Part shown: piece by piece, positions 1 to 10,309 of the stretch
Layout of the letters: each line of letters opens with the position of its first letter
How positions within the stretch are numbered: position 1 is the stretch's first letter
Origin: Candidatus Mcinerneyibacteriota bacterium
Lineage (GTDB): Bacteria > AUK180 > JAQVHJ01
Assembly (NCBI GenBank): GCA_030630935.1
Contig: DAOVMD010000072.1
Location: 1-10,347 of the forward strand
Reading direction: 5' to 3'
DNA length: 10,347 nt
Notes under the pieces: generated by a model
Database searches by the model: none
What the model saw: only the letters and a program-made list of their open reading frames with translations
Told to the model about the DNA's origin: nothing
Made by a program: the position numbers and the translations under genes

Positions 1-2107
1 CATCCTTTTCAAGGTTCTTATAAAAATTCAGGAATAATGTTTTTGTTGATTTATCATTTATTTCCCAGAGAGAAGAAATGATGAATGGAGCACCGGCATA
101 AACTAATGCCCTTGTTAATCCAACTACATCATCTCCGTAAGGTAATTGTTTAGATGTTGCTGAGGTATAGCTTGAAAACTTACCTGACTCACAGGCAGAT
201 AAAATTATTAAACTTGCTTTTATATCAAGATTAAATATTTCCCGGACTGTTAGAAAACCATCGTTCATGGAATCTTTTGTAAGAAGAATCTTAGACTCTA
301 ATGGTTTATCGGGATGGAGTATTCCATGTGTTGCAAGATGGATTATATCAAAGCTACTACAATTATTTCTTAAATATGTTTCTGTCGCTTCTGATTTTAT
401 CTTTATCTCTGTATCAGGATAAAGAACTTTTAATTCTTTTGCTTCTTCTTCAGCATATTTCAATTCATTCCAATCACTGGGATATTGAGCATTTGCAAGA
501 ACTAATTTCCTTTTACTCTCCTGCGGTTTCTTCAGGGGACTCCCAAGAAAATATAACATGCTTGCAGTTGGTAATACTAAAATCTTATATTTCTCAATTA
601 AAAATTCAGGTTTTGGTAGTTGCTTACTCTTTTTATCCTTCTTTGTTACAAGAGCATTAAACGGGAAGTGGTGAAGCATCCTATGCGGAACAATGCAAAT
701 TAACTTGTCTTTTGAAAGGTACCCTTCAATAGGTTCAAATAACGCTTTATATAACCAGTGCAAATCATCCTGCCATGATTTATCCAGGATATTCATTCTT
801 GCACCCGTAGCAGATTGTCTGAATTTTCTAATTCTTTCTTCAATCTCCCATGGTTTCCTTTTTAAAACCACCACTTTTAAAGTCCATTCCTTAAGAACAA
901 ATACAAAAGCAGCTTCAGTACCCAAAAAATAATCTACAAGAATAATATCCTTCCCGAGTATGTTATAGAGTTGATTAAGACTAATTGGTGTAACAGTTTT
1001 CAAGTTTGAATATTCGGGAGCCTGTTGCTTTAACTGATTTAAAATATTCTTTTGTTCTGATATTAAACTCGAAACATCTTCCTTATCAATCTTACTTGCA
1101 ATTTTGAAAGATAATTCCTTCTCCTTTTTAATTAATCCCTTTACTTCACCCGAATATTTCTCTTCACCTACAACCTTACTCCCGATCAAGTCAACAAAAG
1201 TTTTTGCCTTAGCTCTTTCTACAGTTTTAAAACTTAACTCATTCTGGTTTAGAATAATATATAGAGAAGCCAGCTGTTCGTAAACAAAGATTTTATTTTC
1301 AAGGAAAGTTGCCCTGGATCTTTCAAGTGAGATATCACCCCGAATCTCTTCGATTATTTTTCTTGCCCTATTTAATAACTTTACTGCAGTTTCATAATTC
1401 TTTAACTCTCTCTGTGTAATGCCCATATTAATTAAGGATATTACAATCCCAATCTTTAATTTTGCTTTAGTATAAATAAAATTTGCTTTAACAAAATCCT
1501 TTAATGCCTCTTCAGGTTTAGCTAATCTGAAAAATAACTTACCCCGATCAAGATGCAGGTTGCCCAGTAACTCAGGATCTTTAATCTTCTTATCTTCAAT
1601 TAACTTGCTCAGTTCCAAATATGTTTTTTCAGAATCTTTATACTTCTCCTGCTTTTCATATAGGACTGCAATATTTAATAAAATATGTCCAACCCCAGTG
1701 AAATCATTTTCATTCTCAAGAAGTATTTTTGAAGAATCATAAGATTCCTTTGCTCGTTTAAATTCTTTTTGCATCATATAAATTGTACCAAGGTTATTCA
1801 GGGTATTAGCTCTTTCAATATTATCATTTAAAGAGTTAAATATCAGAAGGGCTTCAATATAAAAGCGTTCTGCAGTTCTGTAGTCATAATATTGCCAATA
1901 AATATTTCCCAGGAATTTTAAGGATAAACCTTCCGTTTTTGAGACTTTTCCTTTTTCAGTTGAATGAATTTGTTCAAATATCTTTTTGCTTGCTTCATAT
2001 TCGCCCTTATAGAATAGTTCAATACCTTCTTCAATTGAAACAGCGAAAATATTTACAGATGAAAAAATTAAAATTAGAATAATAAAAATCGTTGAAGATC
2101 TTTTCAT
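1..2107 (-). CDS. Second exported TPR-CHAT caspase-like protease, 3' end outside window (702 aa visible)
   Basis: This reading frame is open from the ATG at 2107-2105 to the window edge and was read directly from the reverse complement. Residues 1-22 are a signal peptide (MKRSST, then an Ile/Leu/Phe core, likely cleavage after IFA). No lipobox Cys is present, so the product should be soluble periplasmic or secreted. TPR units run from about 24 to 300 and close with ERAKAKTFVDLIG, a segment typical of the junction between TPRs and CHAT. A Lys/Glu-rich coiled coil follows, then the CHAT domain from about 395. The catalytic motifs are HLATHG with His594 and LSACESG with Cys639. Compared with the large CHAT protein, about a dozen extra Ser/Thr-rich residues follow the Cys. 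By alignment to that protein roughly 45-50 residues are missing beyond the window. It starts 6 nt after the FecR-like gene stop with only a weak GAAG as possible ribosome site. Confidence 0.88.
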   Translation of the reverse strand, partial: MKRSSTIFIILILIFSSVNIFAVSIEEGIELFYKGEYEASKKIFEQIHSTEKGKVSKTEGLSLKFLGNIYWQYYDYRTAERFYIEALLIFNSLNDNIERANTLNNLGTIYMMQKEFKRAKESYDSSKILLENENDFTGVGHILLNIAVLYEKQEKYKDSEKTYLELSKLIEDKKIKDPELLGNLHLDRGKLFFRLAKPEEALKDFVKANFIYTKAKLKIGIVISLINMGITQRELKNYETAVKLLNRARKIIEEIRGDISLERSRATFLENKIFVYEQLASLYIILNQNELSFKTVERAKAKTFVDLIGSKVVGEEKYSGEVKGLIKKEKELSFKIASKIDKEDVSSLISEQKNILNQLKQQAPEYSNLKTVTPISLNQLYNILGKDIILVDYFLGTEAAFVFVLKEWTLKVVVLKRKPWEIEERIRKFRQSATGARMNILDKSWQDDLHWLYKALFEPIEGYLSKDKLICIVPHRMLHHFPFNALVTKKDKKSKQLPKPEFLIEKYKILVLPTASMLYFLGSPLKKPQESKRKLVLANAQYPSDWNELKYAEEEAKELKVLYPDTEIKIKSEATETYLRNNCSSFDIIHLATHGILHPDKPLESKILLTKDSMNDGFLTVREIFNLDIKASLIILSACESGKFSSYTSATSKQLPYGDDVVGLTRALVYAGAPFIISSLWEINDKSTKTLFLNFYKNLEKD

Positions 2108-2113
2108 CGTGAG

Positions 2114-3031
2114 TTACTTCAATTTCTTAATTAAATTTATCTCCTTATTATAGGGGAGGAGAAGTTTCTGTCTTAGGTGTGTAATTGCAAGCATCTGGTG
2201 GATATAAACACTTTTTGGAGTTTTTTTATTCAGTTCATTAAAATAGACAAAAGCATCTGAATATAATTTTTGTTTAATCAAATAGTTACCATAAGAAATA
2301 TTCAAAGTGTTTTTGCTTGTGATATATTTTTTCCTGAATTCCTTATATACATTTGAATGCAGATCAAGCTTATCTTTCGGCATGATCTTAAAATACGTTT
2401 CTTCTGAAGCATAGTTCTCAGATTCAGTTATGATTACCCAGGTATAAATTTTACCGGGAATTAATTCAGGAGCATCATCCGGATAATCAAATTCGAATTT
2501 GTTCTTTATAACCTGCTTAAATATTTCCTTCCCATTTGAATCCATCAGGATAATAGTAAAACTCTTTTCCTTAACTGAATCAGAATCAACTGTCCAATAG
2601 AATCCGGGTCTTTTATTAATTGTTGAGCTCCTGGGAGAGATGGTTGCAATTTCGTCACCTTCCCGGAGTGATACTGCATCAGCTAAAACAGTCTTCCTGT
2701 TATCAGACGAAAAGAAATCTTCTGTTTTATCCGCATATCTTTTCTTGGCCCTTGTAATATCAACAACCAAGATAATTGTTTTCTCTTCACCCGCTTCAAT
2801 ATTGATAAAGTCACCATTTGCCATTAAAATATCAACACTTGATTCCGCTCCCGGCTTCACTTTATCTCCTTCAAATAGCTCCGTTCCAATATCTGCATTT
2901 ATTGTTTCAGTTCCACGGCTAATTTTTATAGTACCGTTATAATCAGAAATGATCCCCGCTGTTTCTGCAGCAAAGCTGATGAAGGAAATAGAAAGGATAA
3001 AGACCATAGAAATAATGAATTTTGTTCTCAT
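2114..3031 (-). CDS. Exported FecR-like / Ig-like domain protein with short TPR-like tail (305 aa)
   Basis: Residues 1-22 are a signal peptide with likely cleavage at the SFAA region. Residues about 24-90 match the FecR-domain pattern: GxIxxYxGTIKISRG, then AxxGTELFEGDKV, PGAESSVDILMANGD and a final acidic/Gly turn. Residues about 131-217 look like an Ig or fibronectin-type sandwich with conserved-looking Trp146 (FYWTVDS) and Trp198 (YTWVI). This arrangement is often seen in exported accessory proteins encoded beside CHAT-TPR genes, for example the DUF928-type proteins of cyanobacteria (family knowledge, not a search result). Residues about 240-290 look like one degenerate TPR. There is no transmembrane segment after the signal peptide and no sigma-factor gene nearby, so a classical anti-sigma FecR role is unlikely. 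GGAG sits 7 nt before the ATG, and the start overlaps the stop of the large CHAT gene by 4 nt. Inferred periplasmic adaptor or ligand-binding partner of the CHAT proteins. Confidence 0.82.
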   Translation of the reverse strand: MRTKFIISMVFILSISFISFAAETAGIISDYNGTIKISRGTETINADIGTELFEGDKVKPGAESSVDILMANGDFINIEAGEEKTIILVVDITRAKKRYADKTEDFFSSDNRKTVLADAVSLREGDEIATISPRSSTINKRPGFYWTVDSDSVKEKSFTIILMDSNGKEIFKQVIKNKFEFDYPDDAPELIPGKIYTWVIITESENYASEETYFKIMPKDKLDLHSNVYKEFRKKYITSKNTLNISYGNYLIKQKLYSDAFVYFNELNKKTPKSVYIHQMLAITHLRQKLLLPYNKEINLIKKLK

Positions 3032-6000
3032 TTAAAATCTCCTATTAATAAGTATGATGCCCAGTAATATGGGTGTGAATATTTTTTATTTGATTTTTGT
3101 TTCAGTTGTGCATTATGTAAAGCTTCAAGCTTACCCTGCTTCTTTGTTTTTAAATTAGCATAAAACTCTAAAAATAATTCTTTTGTAGATGCATCATTTA
3201 TTTTCCATAATGTCGCAATAAGAGTAGGGACGCCGGCTGTAGCAAATGCTTTTGCAATTGAAATGAATTCCTTTCCTTTGGAACGTTTCTTCTCAATTGC
3301 AGTTTCACATGCAGAGAGAACAACTATATCAACATTCTTACGCATCTTATCATAACCGGCAATGTCAAGGATTGTTAACTTCTTATCTTCTCCTGCAAGA
3401 ATAATGAAAGAATCAAGCGGTTTATATTTCAGGATGCCATGAGTTGCGAGATGTACAATATTATAATCCTTAGCTTCTTCGAAAAATTTGGATTTTGTAG
3501 CATCTTCTTTTATATAAATCTTTGCGTTATTAAAGATAGTCTTCTTTATCTCAATTACTTCCAGTTCAGAGTAAGGTAAGTTATTCTCGGGGTTCCCAAA
3601 TGCAATTAATGAATAATCTTTTTTGATTTTTGACTTCTCTTCTACCAGGTCAAGGATTGTTGCTGAAGTTAAATAATCTATTTTCTTTGAATCAATCAAG
3701 TAAACTGGCTCTGAATTTTTGAACTCTTTAATTAAAGCTGCATACGGTAAATAATATAAAATACCAAACGGAACAATTGAAAGAACTTCATACCCTTCAA
3801 TCTCCGTCTCAACAGGTTTTATCAGGATATTATAAAGGTCATTAAGGTTTTGATAAAGTTCTTTTGTAGAATCGGTGTTTGTAATTAGCCTCTTAAAATT
3901 TATTACCTTATCTTCAAGCGCATCACTTTTTATCTGAACATTCTGAGCTTTAAAACCATCTTTTGCAATTAGAAATATATATAAACTTTCATCCGTAATG
4001 AAATACTCCAGAATAATTGCATTAGCCGGTAATTTCTTCCGGATATCACCAAGGTTTACAGGTTTAATTGAAAGTAAAGAATAAACATCAGGATACTTGA
4101 ACTCAAGCTTCAGCATTAATTGATTAAATTCTCCTTCGGTCTTTGCAATTGTATCATTTAAATATTTTATCTTCGCTTTATCTTGTTCGTCCTTCGGTTT
4201 CTCCTTCTCTTGCTTTAGAAGTTTCTTCAGGTTCTCATTCTTTTGCTCTTTTTCTTTTATATCTTTTAAGAAGGTTTTAAGTTCAGGATTATCAGTTCCG
4301 ATCTGGTCAAAGTTCTTGAATGCTTCTTTTGTCATAAAAGATTTCTGCTCTTCAAGATAACGGAGTGCTTCTTCCTTCCTGTCTAATTTAATCAATATTT
4401 CTATTAATCTTGTGTAGGGCTCCGATTTATTTTCAAATTTAAAAAATTTCTCCTGATGTTCTTCACTGGTAATTGTTATGAAGATATCATTTAAAAGTTT
4501 AATGCTGAGTTTATAATCCTGCACTGCAAGCTCTGACTTTCCCCGGTCTTCATTAATCTTACCGCGTAATAAATGAGCTTTCCATAAAAGTTTAATATAC
4601 CCAATTTGATTTGAGTATTTAATAGACTTATTTACATTATCAGTTGCAGTTTCATAATCCTTCTTCTCATAATAGATCTTTCCCTTTGTTAAATAAATTG
4701 AAACCATGGAGTCAAAATTGTTATATTCTTCGGCAATCTTTAAACTTTCGTCTCCTGTTTTCAATGCTTCTTCATAATCTCCTTTTCGGTAATATAACTC
4801 TGCTAAGTTTGAAAGTGCAATTGAAATTGCCTTGGGTTTATTTGCAAGTCTAAATAACTTAACTGCTTCCTTCAAGTTCTTTTCTGAATTCTCAAAATCA
4901 CCCAGGAAATTTACTTGAAGTTCTCCAAGGTTATTTTTTGCCGCGCCTCTCCAAAAATCATCTCCAATCCTGGTTGCAACAGTATAAAGTTTATTATAAT
5001 CTTCTACTGCTTTCTCAAGCTCACCGAAATTACCGGAGACTTCTGCTTTCAGGTTTAATATGCTAAGCTCGAGGAAAGGATAATATTCTCCTTTAATGAA
5101 ATATGAATATGCAAGGTCTGAATATTCACGGGATTTATTAAGCTTCCCTTCTCTTGCATAGATCCAGGCAATATCCTTTGATATGTTAGTCAATAAATAA
5201 TAATTACTATGAGCTTCAGAATATTCTAAAGCGATTAAATAATTTTCGATTGCTTTAGCATTGTTCCCTGCTGAATAATAACTTCGTGCAAGACTATTAT
5301 AAGTATAATTAATATTATAAATCTCAAAAAATAAATCATCCATTATTAGCAAAGCTAACTGCTCATTTATTGCACTTTCATATTGACCATAATTTAAATA
5401 AAAATCGGTTCGTGCATTTCTAATAAACCGTTCTTGATTCTTAAATGCATGTTTACTAAAAAGATAATCAATTTTCCCCATTATCTGCTTGACATCATCA
5501 CTTCGCCCCAGAGTATAAGCAGACCAGAACATCTTTAAATTCAATGATATCACGGAATTATAATCATCAATATCTTTAAATATCTTCTCTGCTCTCTTAT
5601 AATTTTCAAATGCTTCTTCATAATTATATAGCCGGGAAAATCGATTTCCTTTTGTAATGAATTTCTGTGCTTCAATTCCTTTTAAGATCAATTTCTCAAG
5701 CTTCTTTTTTTCAGGGGAATCTCCCATTAGCAGAAGAAATGTATATGCATCAAAATATTCCCCAGCTTCAATCTCTGATTTTGTGAAATTAATTAAAGCA
5801 TAACCAGGATCAGATTTTAAGTTTTTAATTGCATGACAATAATAAAGAAATTCCTTTACATTTACTGAAGGGTAAAACGTCAACGCTTTCTTAAAATGCT
5901 TAATTGCATTGTCATAATCAAGGTTAAAATAATATGCTTCACCAAGAGTTTGATGAAATTTGAACATTATATCTTTATTTGATTTATCTAAATTTAATGA

Positions 6001-8064
6001 TAATCCATGCTTAATAGCTTTATCATAAATAAACAATCGCTTTAATAATACAAACTTTAAAATACTCTCTTCCCGGGTAAGCTTATCCTTTTTATTCAAG
6101 GCAATTAATTTTTCATATTGAAGTTTCATTAATTTAAATGACGATTTATCAGGAAATGCTTTCTCCATCTCAACAAATACTTCTTCAGCTTTTTCAAATT
6201 TATTCAAATTTAAATATGAAATGACTAAGGATTCCAGGGGAGTGAAAAAGTCCTTGTCAAGTTCCTTTGCCTTAATAAAATATGGAATTGCCTCCTCAAA
6301 CTTATGGAGTTTTCTTAAGGAAAAACCTTTCAGATTTAAGAGGGACGGGTTATTAGGGAATTTCTTTAATCCATCATCCGCTGTTTTGATTGCAAGTTCA
6401 TAATCCTGATATAATGTATAAGTTGAAACCATATCAACAATTCCATCAGGTGATTCAGGATCGATTTCAATTAAATATTCATAATATCTTCTTGCTAAAT
6501 ACGGGTTCCCAATATCCTCAAATAGTTGACCGGTATCTTTATATATTTTCTTTAAACCCTTTTTATAATCGTTCTCCTTGAAGATTCCAATTGATTTATT
6601 TAATAATTCCAAACCATAGAAGTACTTGAACTCTTCTGTGAAATTCGATTTAAACCATGCGAAATTTTGATAACCATCTTGAATCTGTTTAATTTTTCCT
6701 ACCATAGCCAATGCTTCAAGGTTATTACTATCGACTTCAACTGCTTTCATATAATAATTGCTTGCATCTTCAAATACTTCATCATCAAAGAAAACCTTTC
6801 CAATCTTCATATAGTTTTCTGATTTATTCGAAGGGTCAGATTGGATTTTTTCAAGTGCTGTAGATATCTTTATCCATTTATCAAGAAAATCCAGAGTAGG
6901 GTCAGCAGCCTTTGCCTGCTTAAAATAATCAATTGCTTTAGTGTATTCGTCACTTGCAAAATGTGTTTTACCAATTCTAAATAGAGTTGTTCCCTTTTTA
7001 TAATCGGTTTCTAAAACTTTTTGGAATTCAATTTTGGAATCAGTATAATTCTGGAAATAATAATATAGTTCTCCAAGTTTGAATCGGTCCTCTAAATTAT
7101 CAGGGTCATTCTTAAGGGTCTTTCTAAGTTCTTTGAGTTCCTTGAGATTATTAAGAAATTGCTTTGCCTTTTTGAAATCCGGATAAATTTGCAATGCTTC
7201 CTTAATCGTTTCTTCTCCAATTTCAAGTTCGTTTTTTTTCATGTGGTCAGCTGCAATTAAATAAACAGGAACTGCTTTTTCACGTAATATTGCATTCTTT
7301 GCATCTGGAGTATCATTAATTATCCAGGTCATATAAATCTCATTAAATTTCCAGGACTTGGTTAGATATTTTCCAGGATAGTATTTTAGAAATAAAATAA
7401 AATCAACGATATCTTCAATTGTTGTAGCAAGGATTGCTTCTTTATACGTCATACCTGCAAATTTTCCACCGGTTACACTATTTGAAGATAAATATTCATC
7501 AAACTCAACTGCGGTTTCACGAATATCACTTAACATCTCTTGGAGAATATTATCATAAGAGATATTTTTATCAGTTGACATTAGATCTTTAATTGTATAG
7601 AATTCATTTTTATCATAAATATCCTTCATCTGAATATTTCTCAACCATAAACTAAAGAAAGGATTATCAGGGTCCGGTGGGTTCAAATCAATTTGACCGG
7701 AAACAATATCCGCATATTCAGGTGGTTCATAAAGTTTATCGAGTCTAATCACGGATGTTGAAGGATATATCTCAAAGATTGTTCCAGTCGCTATAACCCG
7801 TACCCAATCAATGTTGATCGGATTATCTTTGGTACCAATATTCTTGATTACTTTTACTTGCTTGTCAACTTTGTTAATATAATCATTCTCACCACGATTA
7901 ACAATAATTGTATTATCAGTTGAGTTATAGGTTAGAACCTTAAACAATATCTCATGGGTAGTTTTATCTTTTTCAGTAGGGGGCTTACCTGGTTTTGGGC
8001 AACCAACTAAAAATATAATAAGGCTTAGGATTAATGCTAACTTCCAATACTTAGATAATTTCAT
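3028..8064 (-). CDS. Giant lipoprotein with TPR solenoid and C-terminal CHAT caspase-like protease (1678 aa)
   Basis: The N-terminus is a lipoprotein signal with lipobox LVGC, so Cys22 would be lipidated. Residues about 36-115 are a beta-rich domain (IIVNRG, VRVIATGTIFEIY), loosely like small barrel-type domains such as the FlgT C-terminus; this likeness is only a guess. Residues about 130-250 are helical. From about 258 to 1230 there are some two dozen TPR units, the last ones of the longer kind common in CHAT-TPR proteins. A charged Lys/Glu coiled coil follows (about 1262-1325), then a CHAT domain (about 1340-1678). The caspase-clan motifs are intact: HLATHG with catalytic His1542 and LSACET with Cys1586, followed by AGVP and LW. 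It starts 18 nt after the barrel gene with no clear Shine-Dalgarno; the lipobox supports the start. The stop overlaps the next start (ATGA). It is predicted to be an envelope-anchored cysteine peptidase with a protein-binding scaffold; its substrate is unknown. Confidence 0.9.
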   Translation of the reverse strand: MKLSKYWKLALILSLIIFLVGCPKPGKPPTEKDKTTHEILFKVLTYNSTDNTIIVNRGENDYINKVDKQVKVIKNIGTKDNPINIDWVRVIATGTIFEIYPSTSVIRLDKLYEPPEYADIVSGQIDLNPPDPDNPFFSLWLRNIQMKDIYDKNEFYTIKDLMSTDKNISYDNILQEMLSDIRETAVEFDEYLSSNSVTGGKFAGMTYKEAILATTIEDIVDFILFLKYYPGKYLTKSWKFNEIYMTWIINDTPDAKNAILREKAVPVYLIAADHMKKNELEIGEETIKEALQIYPDFKKAKQFLNNLKELKELRKTLKNDPDNLEDRFKLGELYYYFQNYTDSKIEFQKVLETDYKKGTTLFRIGKTHFASDEYTKAIDYFKQAKAADPTLDFLDKWIKISTALEKIQSDPSNKSENYMKIGKVFFDDEVFEDASNYYMKAVEVDSNNLEALAMVGKIKQIQDGYQNFAWFKSNFTEEFKYFYGLELLNKSIGIFKENDYKKGLKKIYKDTGQLFEDIGNPYLARRYYEYLIEIDPESPDGIVDMVSTYTLYQDYELAIKTADDGLKKFPNNPSLLNLKGFSLRKLHKFEEAIPYFIKAKELDKDFFTPLESLVISYLNLNKFEKAEEVFVEMEKAFPDKSSFKLMKLQYEKLIALNKKDKLTREESILKFVLLKRLFIYDKAIKHGLSLNLDKSNKDIMFKFHQTLGEAYYFNLDYDNAIKHFKKALTFYPSVNVKEFLYYCHAIKNLKSDPGYALINFTKSEIEAGEYFDAYTFLLLMGDSPEKKKLEKLILKGIEAQKFITKGNRFSRLYNYEEAFENYKRAEKIFKDIDDYNSVISLNLKMFWSAYTLGRSDDVKQIMGKIDYLFSKHAFKNQERFIRNARTDFYLNYGQYESAINEQLALLIMDDLFFEIYNINYTYNSLARSYYSAGNNAKAIENYLIALEYSEAHSNYYLLTNISKDIAWIYAREGKLNKSREYSDLAYSYFIKGEYYPFLELSILNLKAEVSGNFGELEKAVEDYNKLYTVATRIGDDFWRGAAKNNLGELQVNFLGDFENSEKNLKEAVKLFRLANKPKAISIALSNLAELYYRKGDYEEALKTGDESLKIAEEYNNFDSMVSIYLTKGKIYYEKKDYETATDNVNKSIKYSNQIGYIKLLWKAHLLRGKINEDRGKSELAVQDYKLSIKLLNDIFITITSEEHQEKFFKFENKSEPYTRLIEILIKLDRKEEALRYLEEQKSFMTKEAFKNFDQIGTDNPELKTFLKDIKEKEQKNENLKKLLKQEKEKPKDEQDKAKIKYLNDTIAKTEGEFNQLMLKLEFKYPDVYSLLSIKPVNLGDIRKKLPANAIILEYFITDESLYIFLIAKDGFKAQNVQIKSDALEDKVINFKRLITNTDSTKELYQNLNDLYNILIKPVETEIEGYEVLSIVPFGILYYLPYAALIKEFKNSEPVYLIDSKKIDYLTSATILDLVEEKSKIKKDYSLIAFGNPENNLPYSELEVIEIKKTIFNNAKIYIKEDATKSKFFEEAKDYNIVHLATHGILKYKPLDSFIILAGEDKKLTILDIAGYDKMRKNVDIVVLSACETAIEKKRSKGKEFISIAKAFATAGVPTLIATLWKINDASTKELFLEFYANLKTKKQGKLEALHNAQLKQKSNKKYSHPYYWASYLLIGDFK
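3039..3042 (-). promoter_or_regulatory. Ribosome binding site for the FecR-like gene, inside the CHAT gene end
   Basis: GGAG on the minus strand lies 7 nt before the ATG at 3031 and within the last codons of the large CHAT gene. Together with the ATGA stop/start overlap (3031-3028) it points to translational coupling, keeping the large CHAT protein and the FecR-like protein at linked levels. Confidence 0.75.
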
Positions 8065-8085
8065 AAGAATAAATTTAAGTTCTTA
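8064..8085 (-). promoter_or_regulatory. Small inverted repeat spanning the barrel-gene stop and the CHAT-lipoprotein start
   Basis: In the message, UAAGAA (starting at the stop codon of the barrel gene) can pair with UUCUUA, whose final A is the first base of the AUG at 8064. The stem is 6 bp with a 10-nt loop and is mostly A-U, so it is weak. If it forms, it would partly hide the start of the CHAT gene until a ribosome finishing the upstream gene opens it. No Shine-Dalgarno is visible in this 18-nt gap. Confidence 0.25.
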
Positions 8086-10113
8086 GAATTTATGTGAGAA
8101 TACAACATTGGGTTCAGTCCGTTCCTCTTCAAGAAAGTCGGGAATTGTTTCATCCCAGATATATGTTTTTTTATATTCAATGAAAAACTTAAAGTATTTC
8201 AAGAATGGTACGGATAGTGAAGCTTCAATATAAGTATTAAAATCTTCAAGTTCAGAACCAACGAGGTCGGGAACCTGTGACCTAATATAAATTGCATAGA
8301 AATCAATCGGTGATTTATCAAGTGTGAACATTGTGAAAGACATTGTACTGGAGTTTTCCACGTCAGGAAACGCTTGATATTCTACATTGGTTTGGAAAAA
8401 CCTTTTTATATTAAAACTCGCCAGGTAGAATTGACCAACTTCGCTCTTTGCCCTGGACTGAATTAAAACGGAAGTTGTATTGATACTGCTTGTTTCAGCT
8501 AATCGATATTTTTCACTTTCATAAAACGAATCAAAGATGGCAGGTTCAAAATCCTCACCTTTTTGAATGATTCCACCGAAGATTTGAAATTTTGTATCGC
8601 TTCGATTTAGAGAGCCAATTGTGATTAATAAACCTCCAATTGCTCCACTTCCGTAATCCTGGATTTGCGCGCCCTCTGCAAATAATGCAAATGAGAAATG
8701 CTGTCTTGAACCTAAATACATTAAAATATCTGCTCCGGCTGTTGTTAGAGAGTCTGGTGTATCAGGGTTTAGGTCCGGGTCAATGTCAGTTGCGAATGTG
8801 AAACCCAGCTCAAATCTTTGGAGGAATGAAGTCCGGCGTTTTCCAAATTTACCAAAGTAGAATCTACCCGCATAAAAAGTCGGGTTCTCAATATCATTGA
8901 TGATTCCTTCAATCCCAATTGTTCCGCGTTTTGTTTGAAAAATAAATCTACCCCCGATCCTTTGTTCGTCTTCATCAATCCTATTCATATAATTCCGGAC
9001 GATGAAGCCGTAGCCGATACTGATATTTTCCATATTACCAATATATAATAATGCAGGCCCGTACTCCCTGCCAATCCTAAGCCGTTGGATAATTTTATGA
9101 TGATCAAGTTCTTCCTTCTTTAAATCACCATCTTTATTTAAAAGGTACTTGAAGGATAATTGCATCCCGAAATTCTTATAAAGAACCTCAGGTTCAAACC
9201 TGAGTGCATAATAGCTTTCGGAATTGATAGTTGTGGAACCAACACCGGCATTCGGGATAAAATGTTTCTTTGGTAAATTAAGCAGGTCCCTTTGCTCCAT
9301 AGTTAATAACCGCATATAAACAAGGTCAAGTGTCGTGGTCATGAATTTAACCGAAACCTTCTTCCCGCGTAAAATCAAAGACTCAGAAATATCTACAAGT
9401 TCTAAGGGTGGTTTTAACTTTATCGCCTTCTGCCGAAATTGTGAACTCTTTTCTTCATCACCTTTCTCTTTATAAACATATGATAAATATAGGTAAGGTT
9501 CAGGATAACTTTTATCAATAGCAATTGCTTTTAATAAAACCTTCTCAGCATTATCATAATCCTTTTTTGAAATGTAAATCGCTCCCTGGGCAGTATAACC
9601 ATACTTGAAGTTTGAATCAAGCTGTGTGGATTTTTGAAAATCTTCAAGGGCCTTATCCGGAGCATCAAGATAAAACTGTAATTGACCGCGGTTAAGATAT
9701 ATATAAGGATTTGAAGGATGCTTTGAAACTAATTCATCAAAATACTTGAGACCTTTTTCCAGCTTCTCCGATTTTGTATAGTACTCAGCAAGAAGCCAGT
9801 ATGATTCGTTTATCTGTGAATCAAGTTCAATGGCTTTTTTAATATCCTTAATACCAAGATGATATTTCCCGGTCTTCCCATAAGCAATTGAACGGGCAAT
9901 ATAATAACTCGGAGCGGTTGCCGTGATCTCAATTGCATCATTGAAGTCTTTTATTGCAAGATCAAATTCGGCTTCGTCAATATTGTTAATTCCGGAAACA
10001 TATAAATGGAATGATTCGTCCTCATCAGTAATGCCCAGGGCGTTTGTCGTGAGTAGAAATGAAAATATCAAAATTAATAAGAGTACCTTAAAACTTGTGT
10101 TGAACTGTTTCAT
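8083..10113 (-). CDS. Exported TPR protein fused to a C-terminal outer-membrane beta-barrel (676 aa)
   Basis: First gene of the operon. Residues 1-27 form a signal peptide: a basic start (MKQ...K) and a Leu/Ile/Phe-rich core, with likely cleavage near NALG. Residues about 33-235 hold roughly six TPR units of about 34 residues with the usual pattern (Y/A at helix positions, Pro near the helix B end, e.g. AIELDSQ, AIAIDKSYPEP). From about 240 onward the sequence turns into alternating polar/hydrophobic strands rich in Gly, Phe and Tyr. The protein ends in NVVFSHKF, and a C-terminal Phe after alternating hydrophobics is the usual signal for BAM-dependent barrel insertion. The barrel family is not recognised; nothing suggests a TonB plug. 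The start is well fixed by AGGAGG 5 nt upstream and by the signal peptide it yields. The role is inferred to be an outer-membrane pore or anchor with periplasmic TPRs that could dock the downstream CHAT proteins. Confident of architecture, not of function. Confidence 0.85.
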   Translation of the reverse strand: MKQFNTSFKVLLLILIFSFLLTTNALGITDEDESFHLYVSGINNIDEAEFDLAIKDFNDAIEITATAPSYYIARSIAYGKTGKYHLGIKDIKKAIELDSQINESYWLLAEYYTKSEKLEKGLKYFDELVSKHPSNPYIYLNRGQLQFYLDAPDKALEDFQKSTQLDSNFKYGYTAQGAIYISKKDYDNAEKVLLKAIAIDKSYPEPYLYLSYVYKEKGDEEKSSQFRQKAIKLKPPLELVDISESLILRGKKVSVKFMTTTLDLVYMRLLTMEQRDLLNLPKKHFIPNAGVGSTTINSESYYALRFEPEVLYKNFGMQLSFKYLLNKDGDLKKEELDHHKIIQRLRIGREYGPALLYIGNMENISIGYGFIVRNYMNRIDEDEQRIGGRFIFQTKRGTIGIEGIINDIENPTFYAGRFYFGKFGKRRTSFLQRFELGFTFATDIDPDLNPDTPDSLTTAGADILMYLGSRQHFSFALFAEGAQIQDYGSGAIGGLLITIGSLNRSDTKFQIFGGIIQKGEDFEPAIFDSFYESEKYRLAETSSINTTSVLIQSRAKSEVGQFYLASFNIKRFFQTNVEYQAFPDVENSSTMSFTMFTLDKSPIDFYAIYIRSQVPDLVGSELEDFNTYIEASLSVPFLKYFKFFIEYKKTYIWDETIPDFLEEERTEPNVVFSHKF

Positions 10114-10258: not shown

Positions 10259-10309
10259 TGTCATTGCGAAGGAGCGGAGCGACTGCGGCAATCTGGGAGC
10301 AATCTCCCA
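10259..10309. repeat. GTCATTGCGA-type intergenic repeat with hairpin
   Basis: This GC-richer patch in AT-rich surroundings starts TGTCATTGCGAAGG and reaches GCAATC near 10293; ATTGC (10263-10267) and GCAAT (10288-10292) are inverted. Within it GGAGC occurs twice in tandem (10271-10280), and CAATCT recurs at 10289 and 10300. It ends in a 6-bp stem, TGGGAG/CTCCCA, around a CAAT loop (10294-10309). Sequences of the form GTCATTGCGA...GCAATC are known as dispersed intergenic repeats in a range of bacterial genomes and metagenome bins; copy number here cannot be seen from one window. Confidence 0.6.

Follow-up and report, generated by a model that had tools for sequence, protein, structure and literature searches.

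Two predicted exported CHAT proteins and a FecR/DUF928-like protein encoded in a conserved gene set of a Mcinerneyibacteriota bacterium

Genes and domains of the locus

The window analysed here, a stretch of 10,347 nucleotides from Candidatus Mcinerneyibacteriota bacterium, is an entire contig (C157) of a genome assembly that is 80% complete. It carries four co-directional genes on the minus strand, to which all coordinates below refer, with intergenic gaps of 18, −4 and 6 nt; these gaps are exactly those given in the original prediction. An export signal had also been claimed for each protein, and a home-made hydropathy/charge rule indeed predicts signal peptides on all four N-termini.

Gene 1 (8083..10113) encodes a putatively exported protein of 676 aa with a signal (residues ~1-27), a TPR region (~27-236) and a barrel-like part (237-676) that ends in a terminal Phe. 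The Pfam matches of this protein are to TPR families only, with no match to POTRA, Omp85 or ShlB. Residues ~290-677 match an exported family of ~440 aa from other lineages, and this homology together with the terminal Phe makes the outer-membrane barrel that had been proposed for gene 1 probable. Other analyses speak less clearly for a barrel: no Pfam barrel family is matched, a single-sequence AlphaFold2 model reached a pLDDT of 33.9, and the count of amphipathic strands did not separate from that of shuffled sequences (z about 1). A PDB search with the profile of this part gave no match. Fusions of a FecR-like part with such a barrel part occur in two other lineages, which ties the two parts together.

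Both CHAT proteins match the Pfam CHAT family (PF12770, cut-off 24 bits), and they are the only CHATs detected in the 80% complete source assembly. Gene 2 (3028..8064) codes for CHAT-A, a predicted lipoprotein of 1,678 aa that has TPR repeats and, at its C-terminus, a CHAT protease domain (3037..3846, residues 1407-1676; E 3.1e-56, 191.4 bits). Gene 4 (2..2107) codes for CHAT-B, a predicted exported TPR-CHAT protein of at least 702 aa that runs past the contig end; its CHAT domain (8..769, residues 447-700; E 3.3e-51, 174.9 bits) covers positions 2-250 of 289. Both contain the motifs HLATHG and LSACE, and the His-Cys dyad is intact in the two sequences (His1542 and Cys1586 in CHAT-A, His594 and Cys639 in CHAT-B), for which proteolytic activity is predicted. 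The lipoprotein signal of CHAT-A (8002..8064) contains the lipobox LVGC ending at Cys22; the +2 residue is Pro, which by the E. coli rule would direct the protein to the outer membrane. The N-terminal region of CHAT-A (7165..7977, residues 30-300) belongs to no Pfam family and was confined to three CHAT-A orthologues in a set of 145 genomes. A scan of the genome contigs with CHAT-A for related loci returned TPR matches only.

Gene 3 (2114..3031) encodes a protein of 305 aa, likewise predicted to be exported, that is a candidate adaptor or sensor. It had been described as FecR/Ig-like. The protein itself does not match Pfam FecR (PF04773) at E 0.1; a weak match (0.017) was found in one full-length homologue, and it is through its homologues that the FecR/Ig/TPR make-up can be recognised. 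The earlier description thus holds by way of the homologues, and a DUF928/Fn3-like domain and a TPR hairpin have to be added to it. The DUF928-like part (2387..2632, residues ~134-215) contains a tyrosine-corner-like motif, L-I-P-G-K-I-Y, of which Leu190 and Tyr196 are invariant in seven homologues. Pfam DUF928 (PF06051) is matched below its cut-off (E 4.8e-4, 20.4 bits, cut-off 26), and a distant homology is supported by hhalign, which aligned residues 134-283 with 13 DUF928 proteins of the cyanobacteria type at a probability of 95.8 and E 7.6e-9. The single-sequence AlphaFold2 model of the gene 3 protein had a pLDDT of 35.0. The profile of the FecR-like N-domain also matched the LapA-type retention module (PDB 5IX9; NCBIfam NF033682) with E 4.9e-5, and two homologues matched retention_LapA weakly; unlike in LapA-type systems, the gene 3 protein is not an adhesin and the window contains neither LapG/LapD-like partners nor a large repeat adhesin. 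We rejected a FecR anti-sigma system because no sigma factor gene is present in the window or in the related loci L034 and L035; the N-terminus of the gene 3 protein is a predicted signal peptide.

Conservation within the class

The original prediction had named a gene set that is not kept together in relatives as the result that would speak against it; we checked this in the class, and the outcome was in favour of the prediction. In a genome of another genus of the same family (G001) the order of the four genes is kept across a contig break, with the same 4-nt overlap; the homologues are 51-71% identical over nearly their full length, with 51% for CHAT-A and 71% for the gene 1 protein, which is encoded at the equivalent position. 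A member of another family of the class (G004) has CHAT-A (31% identity, near full length), the FecR-like protein and CHAT-B; the barrel gene is absent. The barrel protein is thus no fixed part of the set, and its C-terminal half belongs to a family that occurs mostly outside CHAT loci. Altogether, the CHATs are present in three of seven class members and missing from the four others.

The lipobox is also found in the CHAT-A homologue of G001 (LSGC). His and Cys of CHAT-A are both kept in G004, and in G001 the His is located on fragment L033 and the Cys on L034. The CHAT-B orthologues, which are complete in G001 and G004 (735 and 743 aa), keep the dyad as well. We rejected the idea that the two CHATs arose by a recent tandem duplication, because in the tree CHAT-A and CHAT-B fall into different 99% clades, both of which include a G004 member. 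Upstream of the CHAT-A gene, G004 has genes for a histidine kinase (dCache) and an NtrC-type regulator (sigma-54 activator), and the kinase, activator and CHAT-A genes overlap by 4 nt each in turn.

The patchy distribution and the missing barrel gene of G004 would fit unrelated envelope genes that lie side by side by chance. The near full-length identity, the order and the 4-nt overlap kept in another genus, the three genes found in G004 and the FecR-DUF928/CHAT pairing in other lineages (see below) all disfavour this already. The set is more than a chance neighbourhood by these comparisons, and we regard coincidence as highly improbable.

Exported CHAT proteins and their partners in other lineages

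Exported CHATs had been taken to be exceptional. This premise did not hold: among 79 CHAT ORFs from about 60 loci of diverse bacteria, 44 have signal-like N-termini by the same home-made rule, and the pairing of an exported CHAT with a DUF928/FecR-like protein recurs in cyanobacteria and other lineages. Homologues with the FecR-DUF928-TPR make-up adjoin a gene for a CHAT-type protein in one locus (L184), for a CHASE2 protein in a second (L183) and for a CHASE2-cyclase in a third (L185). Among 13 DUF928 genes of other lineages, eight have an exported-type CHAT within ~10 kb, and for ten there is a CHAT or, directly adjacent, a CHASE2 gene; FecR-only control loci showed a CHAT in 0/20 and CHASE2 in 6/20 cases.

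The cyanobacteria-type loci (L068-L072, L205, L207) resemble the window in that a signal-bearing TPR-CHAT lies beside a DUF928 protein, and they also contain CHASE2-kinase/cyclase or TPS/FhaC genes. They differ in having a single CHAT in each unit where the window has two, mostly no FecR N-domain, and a CHASE2 sensor or a secreted haemagglutinin in place of the barrel; their CHATs form a 99% clade of their own. We found no functional paper on these loci in the literature searched. The presence of TPS-domain and FhaC genes raises the question of whether the gene 1 protein exports or displays the CHAT and FecR proteins at the surface, as in two-partner systems. Since its barrel part shows no POTRA/Omp85/ShlB match, none of the four window proteins has a Pfam match to a TPS domain or to ShlB/FhaC with POTRA, and CHAT-A is predicted from its lipobox to be lipidated, we consider such a secretion pair very unlikely.

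A tblastn search with the FecR-like protein gave five weak matches on Nostoc plasmids (E 9e-4 to 0.8), all of which adjoin a CHAT gene; they were not recovered by the profile search and count as about one observation, because all five represent a single locus type in syntenic copies. In these weakly similar loci, genes for kinase-TPR, NB-ARC and secreted haemagglutinin proteins accompany those for a FecR-like protein and an exported CHAT. Such a neighbourhood, like the patchy presence in the class, would suit a conflict or defence function, in which a caspase-like system of the envelope responds to phage or neighbouring cells and the FecR/barrel part is the sensor. Against it, the PADLOC 2023 models of known anti-phage systems gave only weak, generic matches to TPR regions, and neither the window nor the ORFs listed for L033-L036 include a gene for a toxin, a nuclease, a retroelement or a mobile element. 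A defence role therefore appears quite unlikely.

MtxA of magnetotactic bacteria (PDB 4Z29) has the same order of signal peptide, beta-rich N-region, Ig/Fn3-like domain and TPR as the gene 3 protein. The profile of the gene 3 family matches MtxA co-linearly over residues 25-306 (E 4.9e-6), a score that TPR alone may drive. Because this match is lost without the TPR part and a single homologue as query does not find MtxA, we keep MtxA as a lead and not as a family member. The two share the corner motif L-x-P-G, with a histidine in MtxA instead of the tyrosine corner. MtxA is the only studied protein that resembles the gene 3 product in this way. The mtxA gene precedes a CHASE2-adenylate cyclase gene, and under standard conditions its deletion had no phenotypic effect (PMC4439547); unlike for gene 3, no CHAT neighbour is mentioned there. 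The CHASE2-cyclase neighbour is shared by the L185 homologue and in part by L183 (CHASE2 alone). The window shows no such gene within its contig, which stops short of covering every neighbour.

A candidate envelope signalling and proteolysis module

Solved CHAT structures were found only for the Craspase TPR-CHAT protein Csx29 (E about 0.006), which combines TPR and a CHAT cysteine protease as CHAT-A and CHAT-B do. Craspase is cytoplasmic and CRISPR-guided, whereas the window proteins carry predicted export signals, and neither the window nor the ORFs of L033-L036 include cas genes (gRAMP/Cas7-11, Csx30). Among membrane CHAT proteins, the best studied is HetF of Anabaena, in which the CHAT domain is assigned to the first 555 aa and a TM domain serves as anchor; the passages considered here note no FecR/DUF928 partner. 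HetF is located at midcell, works with FtsI and acts in cell division, and mutation of its active site causes a loss of function (PMC8406250). Its location and the very long TPR arrays of the window CHATs would agree with large platforms for assembly during envelope biogenesis or cell division, in which the CHAT domain is a binding module without proteolysis. The conservation of both His-Cys dyads across genera at 31-36% overall identity, the loss of function in HetF active-site mutants and the patchy distribution of the operon, which is unlike a core role, point the other way, and we judge such a scaffold unlikely.

Most likely, the locus is a variant of a recurrent and essentially undescribed association of exported CHATs with FecR/DUF928 proteins; our literature search on CHAT with FecR, DUF928 or CHASE2, whose coverage took in few subscription papers, found no description. 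We give about even chances to the reading that the locus encodes a conserved module for signalling and proteolysis in the envelope. It is supported by the conserved gene order, coupling and dyads, by the recurrence of FecR-DUF928-TPR proteins beside CHAT or CHASE2, by the overlapping sensor genes of G004 and by the FecR-barrel fusions of two other lineages, and weakened by the absence of the barrel from G004, the mtxA mutant without phenotype and the role of HetF in cell division. In such a module the four proteins would be exported across the inner membrane, and CHAT-A would be lipid-anchored, presumably in the outer membrane, next to the TPR/barrel protein, which may contribute to signalling. 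The FecR-DUF928-TPR protein would serve outside the cytoplasm as a sensor or adaptor; by docking on the TPR arms of CHAT-A and CHAT-B, it would hold them inactive, or activate them, depending on an envelope cue. Activated CHAT-A and/or CHAT-B might then cleave a periplasmic or surface substrate, possibly a partner, in what could be the proteolytic cascade that had been suggested along with a possible self/non-self response. In relatives, an adaptor of the same type would be wired to CHASE2 sensor cyclases or kinases, or its locus follows the genes of a two-component system.

In distant bacteria, too, this adaptor occurs beside exported CHAT or sensor genes, which points to a so far undescribed family of signalling systems of the cell envelope. 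We tentatively propose, at somewhat less than even chances, a widespread class of exported TPR-CHATs under FecR/DUF928/MtxA-type adaptors that are wired to CHASE2 or two-component sensors; if true, the orphan proteins DUF928 and MtxA would have a common role. The functional work we found on bacterial CHATs (Craspase, HetF) leaves the exported forms aside, which make up about half of the sampled CHAT ORFs by appearance. Their recurrent FecR-DUF928-TPR partner can be found by sequence, which makes the regulation of exported CHATs directly testable, and it hints at what DUF928, and perhaps MtxA, may do. Provided that the protease activity is real, the locus would represent a caspase-like pathway of regulated proteolysis in the bacterial envelope.

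Gene layout and conservation in the class

The window comprises the complete contig C157 of a draft genome of 3.16 Mb (471 contigs, 80% complete). Four ORFs are encoded on the minus strand: gene 1 (10113-8083), CHAT-A (8064-3028), the FecR-like gene (3031-2114) and CHAT-B, which starts at 2107 and is incomplete at the contig end. The intergenic gaps of 18, -4 and 6 nt given in the original prediction match these coordinates exactly. No other ORF in the window is gene-like; two plus-strand ORFs (119 and 100 amino acids) are located fully within CHAT-B and the FecR-like gene. Upstream of gene 1 lies a 33 bp dispersed repeat, TTGCCGCAGTCGCTCCGCTCCTTCGCAATGACA (10259-10291, minus strand), which has 14 copies in its own genome (at most 3 mismatches; none for the reversed control) and may have caused the contig break.

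In a genome of the same family but another genus (G001), contig C247 carries gene 1 and then CHAT-A, which is cut off where the contig stops. The C-terminal 111 residues of CHAT-A open contig C69, on which the FecR-like gene and CHAT-B come next. Since the two contigs do not overlap, their continuity is likely rather than proven. The 4 nt overlap between CHAT-A and the FecR-like gene is identical in both genomes, and identities to the window are 71% (gene 1), 51% (CHAT-A), 57% (FecR-like) and 56% (CHAT-B). In another family of the class (G004) the order, on a single strand throughout, starts with a dCache histidine kinase and a sigma-54-type response regulator, continues with CHAT-A and two exported-type proteins of 238 and 444 amino acids, and closes with FecR-like and CHAT-B. 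The first three genes show successive 4 nt overlaps, CHAT-A is 2041 amino acids long with an additional N-terminal part, and gene 1 is missing from the locus. Here identities are 31% (CHAT-A), 29% (FecR-like) and 36% (CHAT-B). Neither CHAT nor FecR-like matches were found in four further genomes of the class (91-96% complete). The gene set is thus an accessory operon whose genes were inherited or transferred together.

Two CHAT proteins with predicted export signals

Pfam identified the CHAT domain (E 3.1e-56 for CHAT-A, 3.3e-51 for CHAT-B) and numerous TPRs in both CHAT proteins, only TPRs in gene 1, and as the sole match of the FecR-like protein a weak DUF928 (E 4.8e-4). Both CHATs contain the HLATHG and SACE motifs, and both catalytic residues are conserved in G004. 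CHAT-A and CHAT-B align across TPR, linker and CHAT (26% identity, E 3e-43). In a tree of 62 CHAT domains they fall into separate 99% clades, each with its own G004 orthologue, which by sequence makes them old paralogues retained together. CHAT-A residues 30-300 (window 7165-7977, minus strand) match no Pfam family and were found, among 145 genomes, only in the three CHAT-A orthologues.

All four N-termini scored positive for an export signal by a simple predictive rule, and that of CHAT-A contains a lipobox; export of the four proteins is thus predicted. A sample of about 60 CHAT loci, in which the best-scoring matches predominate, contained 79 CHAT ORFs, 44 of them with a signal-like N-terminus. 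This fraction is approximate, because ORF starts were set mechanically and with an uncalibrated rule for the signals. Judged by such predicted signals, export is ordinary for the CHAT family. Another envelope caspase-like locus (L133:1290-12630) has an exported CHAT gene beside a CHASE2-adenylate cyclase and two exported-type WD40-caspase (Peptidase C14) proteins. One genome (G053; L040, L085) gave about 39 CHAT candidates in a loose first look, eight of which were scored; several of the candidates lie in tandem arrays with signal-like N-termini.

The FecR-like protein and its neighbours

When the profile of the FecR-like protein was compared by hhalign to 13 DUF928 proteins from other genomes, residues 134-283 aligned with a probability of 95.8 (E 7.6e-9). 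DUF928 occurs in 4 of 290 genomes, counting the window's own, whose match is below the curated cut-off; CHATs are present in all four, compared to 81 of the 290 overall. Full-length homologues beyond the class (E below 1e-20) were found in three of these genomes. In G061 the homologue is followed by a gene for an exported protein that has TPRs and the TPR-to-CHAT linker, the contig ending before the catalytic residues; directly after it lie a CHASE2 protein gene in G262 and a CHASE2-adenylate cyclase gene in G059. Twenty control loci, whose protein matches the FecR part only, contained CHAT in none of the stretches and CHASE2 in six. Therefore, CHASE2 pairs with FecR proteins in general and CHAT with the DUF928-bearing type, a consistent pattern in small groups that gives no precise statistic.

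A CHAT lies within about 10 kb of 8 of the 13 DUF928 genes, and two more have an adjacent CHASE2 gene. Neighbours confirmed by Pfam include CHASE2-kinase, CHASE2-cyclase, TPS and FhaC. On a Nostoc plasmid, a 374-amino-acid protein aligns along the length of the window's FecR-like protein (E 4e-6), and its gene lies in a run containing a CHAT gene. In Nostoc plasmid loci L213-L217, genes for a kinase-TPR protein, a FecR-like protein, an exported CHAT and a secreted haemagglutinin occur together, mostly accompanied by an NB-ARC gene and adjoining the CyRepA1 replication gene.

Leu190 and Tyr196 are invariant in the FecR-like alignment and agree with the Fn3 tyrosine-corner consensus L-X-X-G-X-X-Y, as described in the MtxA paper (PMC4439547), which also places a CHASE2-cyclase gene next to mtxA. 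In MtxA, of magnetotactic bacteria, the parts follow one another in the same order, and the profile matches it across residues 25-306. This match disappears once the TPR part is removed; thus, kinship with MtxA remains a lead from sequence comparison. A further match of the FecR-like part is to the module at the N-terminus of a LapA-type adhesin (5IX9, E 4.9e-5).

Gene 1 and a candidate envelope module

Other lineages have exported proteins, about 440 amino acids long, to which the C-terminal 440 residues of gene 1 align. Proteins of two other lineages (L190:7544-9565 and L194:7795-10035) combine a clearly recognisable FecR domain (E 1.6e-13 and 2.2e-11) with a gene 1-type barrel-like part fused behind it, which links FecR domains to this family. 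None of the tests run confirmed the barrel fold of gene 1, and its homologues match the NCBIfam model ImpL63 far below the cut-off. In L186, L187 and L189 such homologues, again with ImpL63 matches below cut-off, adjoin a comF-like gene (named by eye).

We propose that an adaptor with protein-binding domains would control exported CHAT proteases as an envelope module; interaction, activity, substrate and outer-membrane location of its proteins are what we infer. That the adaptor is associated both with sensors (CHASE2, two-component) and with CHATs speaks for a role in signalling. Less probable readings are, from more to less likely, a non-proteolytic scaffold, a defence system and a secretion pair. 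The literature searched contained one paper that names DUF928, but neither a description of the adaptor-CHAT association nor a mention of CHAT domain and CHASE2 together; since its coverage is incomplete, this is weak evidence that the association is new, its parts being already known. Read as such a signalling module, the operon in the window would be a variant of a recurrent association.
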